Positions 1 through 9,522 of a DNA stretch of 21,848 nucleotides are shown piece by piece; within the stretch, counting starts at the first letter, position 1; each line of letters opens with the position of its first letter. The stretch is from a virus: IMG/VR virus record IMGVR_UViG_3300009496_000095, positions 1-21,848 of that record. One strand, 5' to 3'. The notes beneath the pieces were generated by a model. It was not told the origin of the DNA. It made no database searches and saw nothing but the letters and a program-made list of their open reading frames with translations. The translations under genes were made by a program, and so were the position numbers.

Positions 1-960
1 ACCAGTAGCACCTTTAGCACCTTGAGGACTTGAACCTTGAGCACCTTGGTCACCTTTAGTACCAGTAGCACCTTTAGCACCTTGAGGACTTGAACCTTGA
101 GCACCTTGGTCACCTTTAGTACCTGTTGAACCTTGAGCACCTTGAGGACTTGAACCTTGAGCACCTTGGTCACCTTTAGCACCTGTAGCACCTTTTGAAC
201 CTTGAGGACTTGAACCTTGAGCACCTTGGTCACCTTTTGTTCCTGTAGCACCTTTAGCACCTTGAGGACTTGCCCCTTGAGCACCTGTTGAACCTTGAGC
301 ACCTGTATCACCTTTAGCACCTTGAGGACTTGCCCCTTGTGCTCCTTGGTCACCTTTAGCTCCAGCAGCTCCAGTAGCTCCTTGAGGACTTGAACCTTGA
401 GCACCTTGAGGACCTGTTGCCCCAGTAGCTCCCTTAGCACCTTGAGGTGAAGAACCTTGAGCACCTTGAGGACCTGTTGCCCCAGTAGCTCCCTTAGCAC
501 CTTGAGGTGAAGAACCTTGAGCACCTTGTGGGCCTGTAGCCCCAGTAGCACCTTTAGGGCCGGTTGGACTTGCCCCTTGTGCACCTTGTGGGCCTGTAGC
601 CCCAGTAGCACCTTTAGGGCCGGTTGGACTTGCCCCTTGAGCACCTTGTGGGCCTGTAGCCCCAGTAGCACCTTTAGGGCCGGTTGGACTTGCCCCTTGA
701 GCACCTTGGTCACCTTTAGCACCTGTAGCACCTTTAGGGCCGGTTGGACTTGCACCTTGAGCACCTTGGTCACCTTTAGCACCTGTAGCACCTTTAGGGC
801 CGGTTGGACTTGCTCCTTGAGCACCTTGGTCACCTTTAGCACCTGTAGCACCTTTAGCACCTTGAGGACTTGCCCCTTGAGCACCTTGGTCACCTTTAGC
901 ACCTGTAGCACCTTTTGAACCTTGAGGTGAAGAACCTTGAGCACCTTGTGGGCCTTGAGC
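1..960. repeat. 60-bp tandem repeat array coding collagen-like 20-residue units
   Basis: Sixteen consecutive 60-bp units run in perfect register from 1 to 960 and continue off the left edge. A degenerate, partly shifted unit follows to about 1020. Read on the minus strand, each unit gives five Gly-X-Y triplets plus one five-residue step G-(A/S)-S-P-(Q/T), 20 residues in all. Units at 1-60 and 61-120 are identical; others differ mainly in the G-D-Q/G-P-Q and A-K/P-K variants. Copy number is expected to vary by slippage or recombination. Confidence 0.95.
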
Positions 961-1605
961 TCCAGTAGCACCTTGAGCACCTGTTGGACTTGAACCAGCT
1001 GAACCTTGAGCACCTTGTGGGCCTTGATTACTTGCTCCTTGAGCACCTGTTGAACCAGCACCACCGCCTGCTCCTTGAGCACCTTGTGGGCCTGCTCCAC
1101 CTTGTTGACCTGTCGGCCCTTGAGAGCCTAATTGGCCTTTTTGACCTTTTTGACCTTTAGCACCTTGTGGGCCTGTGTTATGTACTAATAAATTTCCTAC
1201 GAAATAATTGTGGTCTGGTTCTACTGTAATACTTACAACTTCAATGTCTTCTTCTACTAACTCTATTGATGTTATAGATAAATCATTGTAAAATAGGTTA
1301 TTACCACATTTACAATCAGAACATCCACATGATTCGTTATTAATTGGTGAAACCCATTCACCATTTTTGTATATTTTTATATCAACGGAAGTTTTTAAGG
1401 TACTTCCATCTGATAATTTAAATTTGAGATATTGGTGTAACGTACCAGTAGCTATTTGGGTAACTCTGTTATCTCTATTAACACCATTAGCTAAGTCACG
1501 ACCTTGTACTAAGTCTCCAATTTGGATAGTTTCTAACTTTACGGAACTTCCATTGATATTAACTAAGGTATCTTTATGTAAACTGTGTATTAAATTGTAA
1601 TTCAT
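1..1605 (-). CDS. Hint (intein-like) domain fused to collagen-like fibre protein, C-terminus off the left edge
   Basis: The reading frame is open from ATG at 1605 (GAGGT five bases upstream) to the window edge, 535 codons without a stop. Residues 8-143 look like a Hint/intein domain: a block A-like start S-L-H-K-D-T-L-V at 8-15 with I-G-D at 29-31, and an end reading [14 protein letters not shown], with the penultimate His142, terminal Asn143 and then Thr144. The usual Cys1 is Ser8, and the usual block B T-x-x-H reads T-S-V-D at 72-75. No homing endonuclease fits; a Cys cluster (93, 95, 98, 100) sits where one would be. From 145 on the protein is Gly-X-Y collagen-like with regular G-(A/S)-S-P-(Q/T) interruptions. 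Known for the family: Asn cyclisation cleaves or splices the chain. Inferred: a trimeric tail fibre or capsid fibre freed by self-cleavage at Asn143/Thr144. It is last in the fibre block, 12 bases after the preceding gene. Confidence 0.85.
1177..1584 (-). other. Hint/mini-intein domain within the collagen-like gene
   Basis: This span codes for residues 8-143 of the protein starting at 1605. Signatures seen: an N-terminal D-T-L-V strand, a C-terminal H-N-Y-F-V strand, and the terminal H-N pair followed by Thr. The length of about 136 residues fits an endonuclease-free mini-intein or a bacterial intein-like domain. Only seven residues precede it, so splicing would join a heptapeptide to the collagen. 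C-terminal cleavage alone seems at least as likely, given Ser for Cys1 and Asp for the block B His. I recognised this by eye only. Confidence 0.75.
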
Positions 1606-1617
1606 GTTTTACCTCAA

Positions 1618-2175
1618 TTATGTTGTTATCATATAAGTAATTGTTAGACCAAAACCTCTTGACCTAAGAGCGGCTTCTCTATCTATAAAAATGTTTATGT
1701 AATCTCCAGCTGCAAAAGAATGATTCGTACCGAAGTTGAAATCTGTTACAGTTCCGGCAGTTGCACTTACTGTTGCAGATACGTCTGATGATAATTGTGA
1801 CCCATTTTTTCGTATTCCCAACGTAACTGACCCTGCAGTTGCTCCTTGGTGTGGATGTAAACGTATATCTTTTACATATCCAGCAAATGGTACTACAAAT
1901 CTCCAATAACCTGTGGTTACTTTCCTATCAATGATGTTAACATTAGAAAATGGAACAAATCCTTCTATTTCATCATTTTTTAGTACTTCAGCATTTGTAT
2001 TTTGAATAAATGGTACTTTTCCTCGAATTGTATTACTTCCAGCGGAAATACTACCCACATTCGAAAGATTGTTATCATCAAAGTCTACTCCACCAGTAAA
2101 CAATGCAGCAGACGCTGTAATTTGATTTAAACTAGCATTAGAGCCGCTAGTGACTATTTTTTTCCAATTTGGCAT
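1618..2175 (-). CDS. Short fibre-like structural protein
   Basis: This 185-aa protein starts M-P-N-W-K-K-I-V-T-S-G-S-x-A-S-L, nearly the same as the start of the 499-aa fibre ending at 2710 (M-A-T-W-K-K-V-I-V-S-G-S-x-A-S-L). I take this to be a common anchor for attachment to the virion. The rest is a beta-rich body without recognised catalytic motifs; the C-terminal part (F-A-A-G-D-Y-I-N-I-F-I-D) resembles the jelly-roll tip domains of phage fibres. It sits between two small unknown genes and the Hint-collagen gene, in the fibre block. Its leader of about 115 bases contains the ATACTTATA motif and a possible hairpin. Start: ATG at 2175 after GGATTAAGGAT. The fibre role is inferred from composition, shared N-terminus and context. 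Confidence 0.75.
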   Translation of the reverse strand: MPNWKKIVTSGSNASLNQITASAALFTGGVDFDDNNLSNVGSISAGSNTIRGKVPFIQNTNAEVLKNDEIEGFVPFSNVNIIDRKVTTGYWRFVVPFAGYVKDIRLHPHQGATAGSVTLGIRKNGSQLSSDVSATVSATAGTVTDFNFGTNHSFAAGDYINIFIDREAALRSRGFGLTITYMITT

Positions 2176-5013: not shown

Positions 5014-8000
5014 TTATGGTGCCGATGCTGAATCAGGCATTATATAATATCTTGAATTATTTGTATTTTCACCCTCTGCAAATATCATACCCCATCTATT
5101 GTATCCTTGATGTGCGTTTTCTAAATCAAAGTAGTAAACACCAGTTCCAATTGTACCAGGTATTGATGCGTCTTTTGCATATACATAGTATTCTTTTGGA
5201 GTACCTGTTGAATCAGGTGGAACACCATCATACATACTTACAGGTTTACCAAGTTGATTAGACGCTGAAGCGAATAAAATTATTAATCTCTGAGACCCAC
5301 CACTTGAAAAATTAAAATGACCAAATGTTGATGTTCCGGTACCAGCTGAATCTGATAATGTGTTTAGTGACCCTGACTTATGTAATGTCATTGTACCACC
5401 AACATATGTTGGATTAAATGTTGTACCAAGTGAACCACTTTGTAAATGTGAAATCACAGAACCACTTGTTATACCAATACCGTCAGCTCCACTATCACCC
5501 ATAGCAGCGATTGCTGCAGCTTGACTAGCAGCAGAACCACCATTCCAACCATAACCATACACAAGTGCTTTTTGGTCAATAATAGTTATACTTTTATTAT
5601 AGCTTGTTGATTTACCAAAGTTATCATGTACTGATGCACTATAATTGTAAGTAACACCACTACTGATTATTCCTGTGTTTTGTAGTTGATATGATGATGA
5701 GTTTGCATTTTGTGGTACAAGTTTTAAATTACCTGCGTGTGTTCCACCTAATGAAGCCGAGAATGGTGTGTCCGATTCTGTATCTGTTATAGTAATTGTT
5801 GTAAGGTTTGTTGATGCCGCAACTGATGCGGTCATGTTTGCACCCACTTCACTAAATGTTGCAGTTGGTGCTTGGTTTGCGAATACATTAAGTGTTAAAG
5901 TACCTGTTCCAACATTATCATATTGGTCTCTGTATGTTATTGTTGATGTAATTACATCACCACTACCAGTAGATGAGCCATTAAGTGCTACACCCATAGT
6001 CAAATTACCACTATTGTCAATACTGACTGATGCGTTTGATGAAGTAAATGATTGAACAGCCGCTGAGTTATATGTTGGAGAATAACTAACCGTTACTTGT
6101 GAAGGGTTACCTGCACCAAATCCACTTGCATCTCTAATTGCTTCGTTATTTAATCCCGATTCAATTATGTATGACGTAGTGTCTCCACCTAATGTTCCGT
6201 TTCCGGCTTGAGCTATTGTATTTGTATGCTTACCTACCCCAGTACTAAAACCATGACTATCTTTTATAGATGCTGTATATTGGTAGGTTGATGCACTTAA
6301 GTTATTTATTGCTTGTACAAAATAAGTATTACCATCTTTAACAGTATTCAATTGACCACTTGGGTCTGTGAATACAAATGAAGGATGATTTAAATTATTA
6401 CTTTCAGCATCAGTAAATGATATTACACTAAGTGTACTACCAGACCTAGCACCATTTGTATTTAAGTTTTCAGATTGATTATTAAATGAAACAGATGGTG
6501 GGTTGTTTTTAACAACATTAATATCTACATCGATAAATTGTTTTGTTGTTTCAAACCCATGTTCTGATGCGGTTACAGCTACACTAATAGTACTACCACT
6601 TGCGTATGCAGAGCCACTTAAATTTCCTATTTGTAAAGTAGTACTTGAACCTGTAGCAGTTGATAATGAAACTAAATTACCAGTTACAGTACCTAATGAC
6701 CATCTTTGACTTACAGCAGATGTCCAAGTTGCAGTATTACCTGTTAGACCATCTGCGTTTACTTTAATATTGTCACCACTCGTAGCCGATTCTATAATAT
6801 ATAAGTTAGTCCAATTATCTGATACAGCACTTGTTGCATCTGCTGTAATTGGAATTGTGATTTCACCTGTATCTTCTGTTGTGTTAAAAGCATCTTTAAC
6901 AGTAACTTGATAAACGTATCTATCAGCTATATCAGAGTTTAAGTATATTCCATTTTTTCTTGTTACTACGCCAGCAGAACTACATTGGAATGGATTACTA
7001 TGTGGGTTGTATAATGATACACCACCTAAAGATGACGTGATATTTGTGTTAACACCATTTTTGAATGCTTTAAGTAATGTAAAGTTTGAAAATACAATCG
7101 TATCACCTTCAGAGTCATTAGCGGTAATTGTACCTAAAGATGCACCATCTGCTGAATTTTCATTAATTGAACTTAATGTTTGGTTGTTTACAGTTGGTAT
7201 TACATTATCAACTACGGACACTCTGAATGGTAGGTAAGCAACTCCTTCACTATCATCACCACTCACATGATGTTCATCACTAGCAGTTAATACGATTTCA
7301 TATTTAGGAGTTACTTCAAAATCCAATGAAGCCGTTGTTTGGTTTAATTGTACATATGTTCCGTATTTTGTAAATGTAAATCCATTCATGTTTACAGAAC
7401 CACTTTTAATTGTTATTTCATCACTCTCGTCATCAGTAAAATAAACTCTTACTTTATTATTTCCAGCAGTTGAGTTTTCATTTAGAGAATGAGTAAAGTT
7501 AGTGATAATACTTCCACCAACTGAGGTTTGTCTCCACTTAGGAGCTGTATTGGGTGTTACCCTAATGTATATTGTTTTAGAACCAACTCCACCAAATGTG
7601 TCTACTGCCTCAACTTGAATTGGATGAGACCCACTGCCTGGTGTAGAATCGGTATTCAATGATGCCGTTGATTTTGTATTTAAAGTAACTGCTCCTGCGG
7701 TTGATATTTTAAATTTGTCAGCTGAGTAAGAACTTGCAGTTCTAAATGTAAAAGATTGACCTTCAGCATCCGTTCCAGTAATAGTTCCTATTGTTGAACC
7801 ACTTACAACAAATTCACCAATTGTAAATCCATTAGTATTAATTGTAGGTACTGTATTAGGGAAAAACACTTTAGAGACAAAATCGGATAATGATGTTGTT
7901 GTTCCAAAGTTAGTATTATATATACCACTTGGTAAATCAGTATTCGATACAACTCGGTTACCATCAAATCCTATAAAGGAAGATGTAGCGACTGACATTG

Positions 8001-9522
8001 AAGCCGTTTGACTATTTGATATAGCAGACCCAGTGAATGTATTTAAAGCCGTTAAACTTGTTTGAGCTGACCCAGTAAATGTATTTAAAGGTACAATGTT
8101 AGTAGAACCACCACCAAACCCTAAAGCGGTTATTTGATTTGATGAGGATACGACACCTGATGGTAAATTAGCTTTTACATTAATAGCATCTGTAACATCA
8201 GCACTTGCTTCAATTAAATCTAATTTATTATGGTCTGCTGTTGTAAAATCATTAGTGGTTAATCCACCATCACCTACAACTGGTTTATTTGCAATATTGT
8301 TAAAGTTTACTTGAGCTGATGAACTAATTGTTCCACCAGGTAAAGTAGATGACCCAAATCCAGCTTGTGATATTGAACGTGATACTTCAGTATCAAAATC
8401 TGTTATACTCGAAGTTGTAATTGAACCTACTGATGTTAGGTATGAACTTGAAGCTGCATTTAGAGCATTTATACTTGTTTGAGCTGAACCTGTAAAGTTA
8501 TTTAAAGGTGTAGCGTTGAATGACCCACCACCACCAAAACCTAAAGCGGTTATTTGTGCTGATGAAGATACTGTACCACTTGGGACTGATGTTAGGTATG
8601 AACTTGAAGCTACGTTTAAGGCAGTTATACTTGTTTGAGCTGAACCTGTAAAAGTATTTAGTGCACTAATGTCCGTAGAACCACCACCTTGTCCAAATCC
8701 ACTACTTGCGGCTGATGCCGAAATGTATGAATCAGTTACTACTGATGTTATCTGAGATGAACCTGAAATCGTTCCACTTGGAACTGATGTTAGATATGAA
8801 CTTGAAGCTGCATTTAGAGCATTTATACTCGTTTGAGCTGAACCTGTAAAAGTATTTAGTGATGATATGTCTGTATGTGATGAACTTACAAGACCACTTG
8901 GTACATTATCTAAATTAGACCAATCAATTGACCCAGTAATTCCACCATTAACTTCAAAAGACCCAGTTACTTGTAAATCTGCACTTACTTTATAGTAACC
9001 AGACCCAGTCGTCCATATAGATGAACCACCGGCTCCACCACCACCACCTAATGATGATAAATCAACAACATTTCCTTCTGATATACTTAATTCTTTAGAT
9101 ACTTGGTTGAATGTAAGTGTCTGATTGTCACCACTAGCCTCTACTTGAGTTAAACGAGTGGATATTGAACCACTATCTGTTTCTAAAGAAGAAACTCTAG
9201 CTTTTATTGAACCACTTTCAGTATTTAATGCAACAATACTACTTGTTATAGCTTCTATACTATCTACTCTACTATCTAATATAGCTTTTTCACTTTCGAC
9301 TGTTGTAAGTCGAGTGGATACTGACGCAGATGTAGCTAAGTTTGTAACTTGTCTAAAGTTATTGTTAGCTACAATTGAATTTTTTTGAAATGCAGAAATA
9401 GTTACAGGTCTATTAGAAATAGAATTGTAATTAATCTGGTTTGATGACGACACAACTCCGTTAGAAGCCGTTATATCGCCATAAAATGACCCACTAAAGG
9501 AACCTGAATAGTCAAATGACAT
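5014..9522 (-). CDS. Large modular tail fibre protein (1502 aa) with cadherin/Ig-like domains
   Basis: Regions by rough residue number: 1-55 a Ser-rich anchor (Y-S-G-S-F-S-G-S-F-Y-G-D-I); 60-130 a heptad-like coiled coil with repeated S-x-x-T-R-L-T-x-V-E and R-V-S-S-L-E; 150-510 a shaft with repeated L-N-x-F-T-G-S-A-Q-T-S and A-S-S-S-Y-L-T-S-V modules, Gly-rich hinges and one G-D-G-G-L-T/I-E-A-S-A-D-V-T-D module; about 555-1290 tandem beta-sandwich domains of cadherin/Ig type, seen as I-N-E-N-S-x-D-G-A-S-L-G-T-I-T-A-N-D-S-E-G-D and G-T-I-T-G-T-D-A-E-G-Q; about 1300-1502 a C-terminal tip (Y-G-Y-G-W-N-G-G at its start). The likely role is an extended host-binding fibre whose Ig-like part binds surface sugars or proteins. 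ATG at 9522 has GGAG eight bases upstream. It heads the fibre block. It could instead be a proximal fibre or neck fibre. Confidence 0.88.
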   Translation of the reverse strand: MSFDYSGSFSGSFYGDITASNGVVSSSNQINYNSISNRPVTISAFQKNSIVANNNFRQVTNLATSASVSTRLTTVESEKAILDSRVDSIEAITSSIVALNTESGSIKARVSSLETDSGSISTRLTQVEASGDNQTLTFNQVSKELSISEGNVVDLSSLGGGGGAGGSSIWTTGSGYYKVSADLQVTGSFEVNGGITGSIDWSNLDNVPSGLVSSSHTDISSLNTFTGSAQTSINALNAASSSYLTSVPSGTISGSSQITSVVTDSYISASAASSGFGQGGGSTDISALNTFTGSAQTSITALNVASSSYLTSVPSGTVSSSAQITALGFGGGGSFNATPLNNFTGSAQTSINALNAASSSYLTSVGSITTSSITDFDTEVSRSISQAGFGSSTLPGGTISSSAQVNFNNIANKPVVGDGGLTTNDFTTADHNKLDLIEASADVTDAINVKANLPSGVVSSSNQITALGFGGGSTNIVPLNTFTGSAQTSLTALNTFTGSAISNSQTASMSVATSSFIGFDGNRVVSNTDLPSGIYNTNFGTTTSLSDFVSKVFFPNTVPTINTNGFTIGEFVVSGSTIGTITGTDAEGQSFTFRTASSYSADKFKISTAGAVTLNTKSTASLNTDSTPGSGSHPIQVEAVDTFGGVGSKTIYIRVTPNTAPKWRQTSVGGSIITNFTHSLNENSTAGNNKVRVYFTDDESDEITIKSGSVNMNGFTFTKYGTYVQLNQTTASLDFEVTPKYEIVLTASDEHHVSGDDSEGVAYLPFRVSVVDNVIPTVNNQTLSSINENSADGASLGTITANDSEGDTIVFSNFTLLKAFKNGVNTNITSSLGGVSLYNPHSNPFQCSSAGVVTRKNGIYLNSDIADRYVYQVTVKDAFNTTEDTGEITIPITADATSAVSDNWTNLYIIESATSGDNIKVNADGLTGNTATWTSAVSQRWSLGTVTGNLVSLSTATGSSTTLQIGNLSGSAYASGSTISVAVTASEHGFETTKQFIDVDINVVKNNPPSVSFNNQSENLNTNGARSGSTLSVISFTDAESNNLNHPSFVFTDPSGQLNTVKDGNTYFVQAINNLSASTYQYTASIKDSHGFSTGVGKHTNTIAQAGNGTLGGDTTSYIIESGLNNEAIRDASGFGAGNPSQVTVSYSPTYNSAAVQSFTSSNASVSIDNSGNLTMGVALNGSSTGSGDVITSTITYRDQYDNVGTGTLTLNVFANQAPTATFSEVGANMTASVAASTNLTTITITDTESDTPFSASLGGTHAGNLKLVPQNANSSSYQLQNTGIISSGVTYNYSASVHDNFGKSTSYNKSITIIDQKALVYGYGWNGGSAASQAAAIAAMGDSGADGIGITSGSVISHLQSGSLGTTFNPTYVGGTMTLHKSGSLNTLSDSAGTGTSTFGHFNFSSGGSQRLIILFASASNQLGKPVSMYDGVPPDSTGTPKEYYVYAKDASIPGTIGTGVYYFDLENAHQGYNRWGMIFAEGENTNNSRYYIMPDSASAP
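8003..8092. repeat. 90-bp repeat shared with the small fibre gene, copy 2
   Basis: Partner of 4611-4700. It lies in the shaft-coding part of the 1502-aa fibre gene and codes for the doubled L-N-T-F-T-G-S-A module. Confidence 0.85.
8430..8858. repeat. Three ~75-bp shaft repeats inside the large fibre gene
   Basis: Closely similar ~75-bp copies start near 8430, 8586 and 8784. Each codes for L-N-x-F-T-G-S-A-Q-T-S-(I)-x-A-L-N-x-A-S-S-S-Y-L-T-S-V. The spacing is irregular (about 156 and 198 bases), so this is dispersed internal duplication rather than a strict tandem array. Confidence 0.8.

Follow-up and report, generated by a model that had tools for sequence, protein, structure and literature searches.

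A Hint domain as a predicted self-cleaving N-terminal pro-domain of a collagen-like protein in a T4-like phage

Introduction

Inteins and BIL domains share the Hint fold, and C-cleaving inteins in which position 1 is changed to Ala have been engineered, for example for purification tags. In splicing, the N-terminal steps depend on a nucleophile at position 1 that is aided by a threonine and a histidine of block B, and C-terminal cleavage is brought about by an asparagine that is in many inteins aided by a histidine of block F and the penultimate histidine, as part of PMC4031507 sets out. The chemistry of type A BIL domains starts with an N-terminal thioester, and in the same part of that source the BIL domains are described as lacking a +1 nucleophile (PMC4031507). 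In animals, the N-propeptide of procollagen is an N-terminal domain that a separate protease removes to give mature collagen (PMC8968730, in part). Here, we describe a Hint domain at the extreme N-terminus of a collagen-like protein of a T4-like phage. The gene is located in the IMG/VR virus record IMGVR_UViG_3300009496_000095, of which positions 1 to 21,848 were analysed (21,848 bases, evidently a fragment; this whole stretch is called the window). Based on sequence comparisons and a structural model, this domain (Hint 1) is probably an N-terminal pro-domain of the phage collagen (collagen 1) that cuts itself off at Asn143/Thr144 without splicing.

Results

The gene for collagen 1 occupies one end of the window (1-1605, minus strand) as an open frame of which 535 codons can be read before it runs off the contig end within the collagen repeat; complete relatives of the protein have about 942-1363 residues. 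A first-pass annotation of this DNA had claimed a Hint domain on a collagen-like protein, and this is borne out by several comparisons. In the window protein itself, Pfam gave PT-HINT (E 0.0018) and Intein_splicing (E 0.052), both under the Pfam cut-offs; among 19 aligned relatives, Intein_splicing was found in all and PT-HINT in 15 (E<=0.1). The structure prediction that the annotation had proposed as a check returned the Hint fold: an AlphaFold2 model built from 14 family sequences reached a pLDDT of 82.8, being weakest at residues 90-99 and past residue 145, and the first 50 Foldseek matches among solved structures were inteins and BIL domains, the best being BIL2 of Tetrahymena (6y75, E 6.8e-10). 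VIA-align to 6y75 gave Z 18.4 and a root mean square deviation of 1.9 over 138 residues, and BIL2 was also nearest to Hint 1 in the profile comparison (E 2.6e-9). In the structure alignment, residue 8 of the model pairs with the first residue of the intein and residue 143 with its last, and thus the domain boundaries given before, with seven residues ahead of the domain, are right. The model and the structure search show the beta fold of the Hint superfamily over the entire domain, and chance resemblance is excluded; the Hint fold, like the order of the genes described below, is solid. A viral fold library also contains other Hint-like phage proteins, some of them named for fibronectin type III. 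The parts of the gene are the following:

1..1605, minus strand: Hint-collagen protein 1, cut by the contig end, 535 residues seen (reading of open reading frames)
1612..1615, minus strand: GAGG directly 5' of the ATG, presumably ribosome-binding (by eye)
1585..1605, minus strand: short leader, residues 1-7, MNYNLIH, with Ile-His at -2/-1 in 19/19 (alignment)
1177..1584, minus strand: Hint (intein-fold) domain, residues 8-143 (AlphaFold2, Foldseek, structure alignment)
1561..1572, minus strand: remnant of block A, D-T-L-V, residues 12-15; position 1 is residue 8, Ser in the window (sequence reading, alignment)
1177..1233, minus strand: blocks F and G, residues 125-143, [19 protein letters not shown], with Ser at F:4, His132 at F:13, His142 and Asn143 (alignment)
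1174..1179, minus strand: predicted cleavage site Asn143/Thr144; Thr-Gly-Pro comes next in 19/19 (alignment)
1..1176, minus strand: Gly-X-Y collagen-like region, 392 residues seen, 108 triplets in perfect runs (Pfam Collagen, E 7.4e-30)

The window protein starts with [15 protein letters not shown], runs up to residue 143 with [16 protein letters not shown] and continues directly after it with [11 protein letters not shown] before the collagen repeat sets in. The D-T-L-V motif, the C-terminal signature [11 protein letters not shown] (residues 133-143), Thr144 and the immediate start of Gly-X-Y are as the annotation had described them. A longer N-terminus is ruled out because an in-frame stop lies two codons 5' of the ATG. 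Nor is the protein a readthrough fusion to the gene upstream of it: the two genes have a common frame, but two in-frame stops lie between them.

Two scans of viral contigs for relatives of Hint 1 gave 22 and 31 loci, mostly on the same contigs. The alignment has 19 rows in 15 clusters at 90% identity (several rows are close kin, and the window and L004 are 97% alike); two search matches that by eye are other proteins (L023 and L054) were left out. In all 19 relatives, the Hint domain is N-terminal on a phage collagen. The conservation of the domain is lopsided: 16 of the 24 columns in residues 125-148 are invariant, as compared to 12 of the 124 columns before residue 125. Ser125, His132, His142, Asn143, Thr144, Gly145 and Pro146 do not vary in any of the 19 rows, and each of them shows synonymous codon changes. 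Thus, the residues of C-terminal cleavage (the F-block His, the penultimate His, the Asn and the +1 Thr) are intact throughout, whereas the N-terminal splicing set is degenerate. The Ser at position 1 that had been pointed out before is present in the window, but it is not a feature of the family, which has Gly in 12, Ser in four (including the window) and Ala in three rows, and Cys in none. Similarly, the block B His had been said to be replaced by Asp. This His is indeed absent from columns 75 and 76 in 19/19, column 75 being Asp in 16 and Lys in three rows and column 76 Ile, Ser, Ala, Leu or Val; the profile alignment with the gp41-1 intein, through which the B:12 and F:4 columns were also placed, sets the His opposite Ile76 and not Asp75. 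Only L043 has a His at column 74. The leader has 5-7 residues depending on the ATG used (four as aligned in L046, with the ATG one residue later) and ends with Ile-His in all rows. The fold search and the lopsided conservation in the relatives support the prediction of C-terminal cleavage without full splicing; the observation behind that prediction is confirmed, and its interpretation is partly supported.

When the C-terminal tip of collagen 1 was used as a separate query, 35 loci were found, many of them near-copies; 13 of them are whole genes, all on contigs already known from the Hint searches, and 13/13 start with the Hint domain, so that no whole collagen 1 copy without this domain was present among these loci. 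In bacterial and archaeal genomes, 13 pattern matches for Hint 1 were obtained and none was confirmed. Among isolated phages, there was only a weak Erwinia match (E 0.2 with the domain of the window, 0.005 with that of L019), and the C-terminal tip found no match.

A cysteine-rich loop, CGCSDCKCG (window 1303-1329, minus strand; residues 93-101), lies between blocks B and F, in a loop that was modelled with low confidence. This loop has three or four Cys in nine of the 19 aligned sequences and none or one in the other ten. It could serve in metal binding and in the control of the Hint domain; for BIL2, zinc has been described to alter the active site (PMC8616854, in part).

The gene after collagen 1 in the relatives encodes a second collagen, the complete copies of which have 1,078-2,184 residues. 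Its N-terminal domain (Hint 2) has its last Asn at residue 155-209. Hint 2 was identified based on the comparison of its profile with that of Hint 1 (hhalign E 2.5e-5, probability 75%) and the fold search: its model (pLDDT 86; residues 1-4 poorly modelled) matched Hint structures with a Foldseek E of 3.4e-7, and with Z 17.3 to a hedgehog domain and 15.9 to BIL2. The Hint 2 profile did not match any intein among the sequences of solved structures. In the structure alignment, protein residue 5 pairs with intein residue 4. In the 14 distinct copies aligned, a single residue (Met) precedes the domain, or three in 3/14, so that there is practically nothing to splice. The final Asn is kept in 14/14 and the penultimate His in 13/14 copies, the exception being an Arg in L078, the closest relative of the window. 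The residues after the Asn are A, V, N, S, V, P, P, P, A, A, F, R, F and D, and F:4 is variable, too (by eye). Hint 2 and the collagen are separated by 22-104 residues that include 1-10 Cys (14 copies; in L059 from position 7648, and in the other second collagens).

Collagen 2 is followed by a gene for a 2OG-Fe(II) oxygenase of 199-201 residues where complete, in all 32 loci in which the sequence continues (three of the 35 loci end within collagen 2, and in five of the 32 the contig end truncates the gene). Pfam was applied to four of the oxygenase genes, giving E 3.8e-12 for the one in L078, and the remainder were recognised by eye; the nearest solved relatives are PKHD-type hydroxylases. In the records read further, a family-2 glycosyltransferase usually comes next (Pfam on the L078 copy; absent in L066), and then a protein of 558-576 residues, one half of which is a glycosyltransferase and whose C-terminal domain resembles procollagen lysyl hydroxylases (E 6e-29 to LH3 and E 5.4e-22 to the mimivirus enzyme, 6ax6). 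By eye, an HHD and a distal His of this domain, which we take to be the iron ligands, align with the HxD...H of the lysyl hydroxylase catalytic domain, and judged by its sequence, the enzyme is a predicted procollagen lysyl hydroxylase. The place of its gene was read directly in four records (L066, L118, L119 and L120). The domain was found in 12 of the 14 records searched, the two misses (G001 and G010) being contigs that end within collagen 1; isolated phages gave 19 weaker matches. Next in order is the gene of a head-tail adaptor (phrog_211; in L118, E 1.4e-13). Taken together, the genes after collagen 1 in the relatives look like a phage collagen-maturation cassette.

For the phage of the window, the cassette was read from L078 and L118 (record G011), which come from the same metagenome as L003, and the Hint-collagen stretch of L003 is identical to the window at 1604 of 1605 bases. 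The collagen repeat units of L078 and L003 have 252 of 1770 30-mers in common, with a longest exact match of 59 bases, and the join between L003 and L078 is spanned by no single contig. Many contigs, including the window, stop within the collagen repeat, and assemblies therefore hide the cassette 3' of it. In Synechococcus phage S-CAM9 (L121:1-7483), a fibre with a collagen stretch of 59 triplets is followed by two genes annotated as 2OG-Fe(II) oxygenase. A 614-residue "hypothetical protein" after this fibre has matches to glycosyltransferase family 25 and to the glycosyltransferase domain of PLOD, and its C-terminus is weakly similar to the lysyl hydroxylase domain.

Animal lysyl hydroxylases act on X-Lys-Gly, and Lys favours the Y position in collagens generally. 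Counted over its perfect Gly-X-Y runs, the window collagen has 25 Lys at Y and none at X, and 14 Pro at X and none at Y. In 12 further collagen 1 chains, there is no Lys at X and Pro is found at Y 0-3 times. The 16 collagen 2 chains have 0-3 Lys at X and 0-5 Pro at Y, with the exception of L075 (Lys nine times at X and once at Y). This bias of Lys for Y and of Pro for X is compatible with lysine hydroxylation and would leave little substrate for prolyl-4-hydroxylation; it is not proof.

The assignment to a T4-like phage, already suspected from the first inspection, is confirmed by a match to the major capsid protein Gp23 in the window (Pfam, E 1.6e-78). By Gp23, the nearest isolated phages are Microcystis phage Mel-JY01 (58.9%) and Flavobacterium phages (53.9%). 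Next to the collagen gene lies the following gene:

1618..2175, minus strand: upstream neighbour, 185 amino acids, start MPNWKK (reading of open reading frames)

No Pfam match was obtained for this neighbour; in several relatives, a similar fibre-like gene stands in its place. Further on, the fibre region of the window (5014-9522, minus strand) encodes a 1502-residue protein with a cadherin-like match under the Pfam cut-off (E 1.7e-5).

Discussion

The N-terminal set of Hint 1 is degenerate and its C-terminal set is complete, and therefore uncoupled C-terminal cleavage after Asn143 is the simplest reading of the domain. A gp41-1 intein with the Cys1Ala exchange and a grafted class 3 motif gave the C-cleaved product as the dominant one (PMC7664689, in part). 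For the Pho RadA intein, the Asp at F:4 has been proposed to restrain the Asn (PMC4031507, in part); in the Hint 1 family, the Asp that is usual at F:4 is replaced by Ser. After folding, Asn143 would cyclise to a succinimide and thereby cut the bond between residues 143 and 144, and the remaining collagen chain would begin at Thr144. Before it is shed, the Hint domain may help to start or align the collagen chains, or it may hold them soluble until they are modified. The shedding would resemble the removal of the N-propeptide from animal procollagen, but without an outside protease. The domain would be a part of the collagen-maturation cassette, with the same design on collagen 2 and with genes for hydroxylase-like enzymes and glycosyltransferases after it. 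The position of the collagen genes between fibre-like genes and the head-tail adaptor suggests that the mature chains are probably virion fibres. Tentatively, and with less confidence than for the self-cleavage of Hint 1, one may think of a maturation line of the phages' own, in which two collagens with self-cleaving pro-domains would be hydroxylated at Lys and glycosylated by the adjacent enzymes to become modified virion fibres; both the cleavage and the modification are predictions at this stage.

Several points weigh against self-cleavage of the domain. The second Hint domain of the near-identical phage (L078) ends with Arg-Asn and not with His-Asn. Plain C-terminal cleavage does not require the strict conservation of the +1 Thr and of Ser at F:4 in Hint 1, which could reflect an extra chemistry; alternatively, it could result from the start of the collagen and shared ancestry. 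Moreover, the strong conservation of the C-terminal end of Hint 1 could be structural in origin, and the Ser at position 1 of the window could itself act as a nucleophile. Finally, C-terminal cleavage is coupled to the N-terminal steps in some inteins (PMC4031507, in part); if this held here, an N-dead domain would cut slowly.

Alternatively, Hint 1 would not be cleaved at all: it would have turned into a cap or virion anchor at the N-terminus, with a structural role alone, which folds the collagen and remains attached to it. The already degenerate N-terminal chemistry of Hint 1, the lack of the penultimate His in the second domain of the closest relative and the requirement for N-terminal steps in the C-cleavage of some inteins (PMC4031507, in part) would all fit such a cap. 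However, a cap has no obvious need for an F-block His, a penultimate His, an Asn and a +1 Thr that are invariant in 19/19 sequences, nor for an Asn that is kept in 14/14 diverged second domains, and we regard this possibility as unlikely. An unusual full splicing appears to be quite improbable: in this case, Ser at F:4 (or Ser1) would attack the bond after His7, the leader of 4-7 residues would be transferred to Thr144 and Asn143 would cyclise, giving the leader joined to Thr144 as the product. This would account for the Ile-His of the leader, the F:4 Ser and the +1 Thr, each being invariant in 19/19, and for the variation at +1 and (by eye) at F:4 in the second domain, which is nearly without a leader. 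On the other hand, the class 3 set and the block B His are absent from Hint 1, and the product would differ by just 4-7 residues. It is very unlikely that the domain passes a fragment to another protein or links the collagen to it, as BIL2 does. BIL2 is the nearest solved structure, and in Tetrahymena it joins ubiquitin-like domains to lysines, making isopeptide bonds (PMC8616854, in part). However, most Hint 1 relatives have nothing equivalent to its Cys1 and block B His (H69), which the same source presents as key to the first step. That Hint 1 is a former mini-intein, inserted at the start of the collagen gene and now decaying without function, is hardly credible in spite of its degenerate N-terminal half, as the domain is present in 13/13 whole genes, conserved at the protein level and repeated on collagen 2.

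Two other assignments were rejected. A class 3 intein was considered for the hydroxyl residues at F:4 and +1, but the three residues of the class and the block B His are missing. For a mobile intein in a host protein, there is no room for an endonuclease and no N-extein domain, and no copy without the domain was found.

What seems to be new is an intein-like domain without intact N-terminal chemistry that is fixed as the predicted N-terminal pro-domain of phage collagens; among the matches listed from open-licence PubMed Central, no description of a Hint-led phage collagen was found. If self-cleavage is true, this would be a natural intein-fold domain that does not splice and has kept C-terminal cleavage alone, serving as a pro-domain that can be removed and not as a parasite. 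Phages would then have, beside glycosyltransferases and a lysyl hydroxylase of the animal type, a counterpart of procollagen processing that needs no protease. Such a system might be a source of tagless self-cleaving fusions and of recombinant collagen with modifications.

Among known phage proteins, the virion protein of Erwinia Alexandravirus (phrog_38766) is also collagen-like and carries a Hint-like domain, but there the domain is C-terminal, starts with Cys and has the block B His (by eye). In Erwinia phage pEa_SNUABM_2 (L055:4813-6255), the C-terminal Hint-like domain, as read by eye, ends with VHN, after which come Thr and a short tail; this is a separate pairing of Hint and collagen, in cultured phages. 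The last enzyme of the cassette resembles mimivirus L230 and human LH3 (PLOD3) in combining a lysyl hydroxylase with a glycosyltransferase. In contrast to these enzymes, its glycosyltransferase half is of the group 1/family 4 type (Pfam) and not of the PLOD type, and the fused enzyme occurs here in a phage.

Hint 1 shares with the type A BIL domains and Tetrahymena BIL2 the fold, the small size, the lack of an endonuclease and the C-terminal His-Asn, which is present in 19/19 Hint 1 and 13/14 Hint 2 sequences. With respect to the type A chemistry, Hint 1 is nearly the reverse: the thioester Cys is absent in 19/19 sequences and the +1 nucleophile is present in all of them (Thr), and the domain is located at the very N-terminal end of a phage collagen. 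The start of Hint 2 is its own Met or lies beside it, and Hint 2 mostly agrees with the BIL domains in having no +1 nucleophile (Ser in 1/14). With the class 1 mini-inteins such as gp41-1 and Ssp DnaB, Hint 1 has the fold, blocks F and G, and the C-terminal Asn143 with Thr144 as the +1 residue (19/19) in common. Unlike these, it has no nucleophile at position 1 in 15/19 sequences (Gly or Ala; Ser in 4/19, among them the window), no block B His in the family and almost no N-extein, and it is not inserted in a host enzyme. The combination of Ala1, Cys+1 and Asp at F:4 that defines class 2 is not found, as +1 is Thr and F:4 is Ser in 19/19. As in class 3 inteins, a nucleophile at position 1 is not required, and Hint 1 has a candidate hydroxyl nucleophile at F:4; however, it lacks both the Trp-Cys-Thr set, having Ile, Phe or Val at B:12, Ser at F:4 and Val, Ile, Met, Phe or Leu at G:5, and the block B His (the motif and this His were used as the test as in part of PMC7664689). 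In design, Hint 1 parallels the engineered inteins with Ala at position 1, as it is likewise predicted to be N-dead and C-cleaving, but it is natural and sits on a collagen. Finally, Hint 1 resembles the N-propeptide of animal procollagen as an N-terminal domain that would be removed for the mature collagen, with the difference that animals use a separate protease whereas Hint 1 is predicted to cleave itself.
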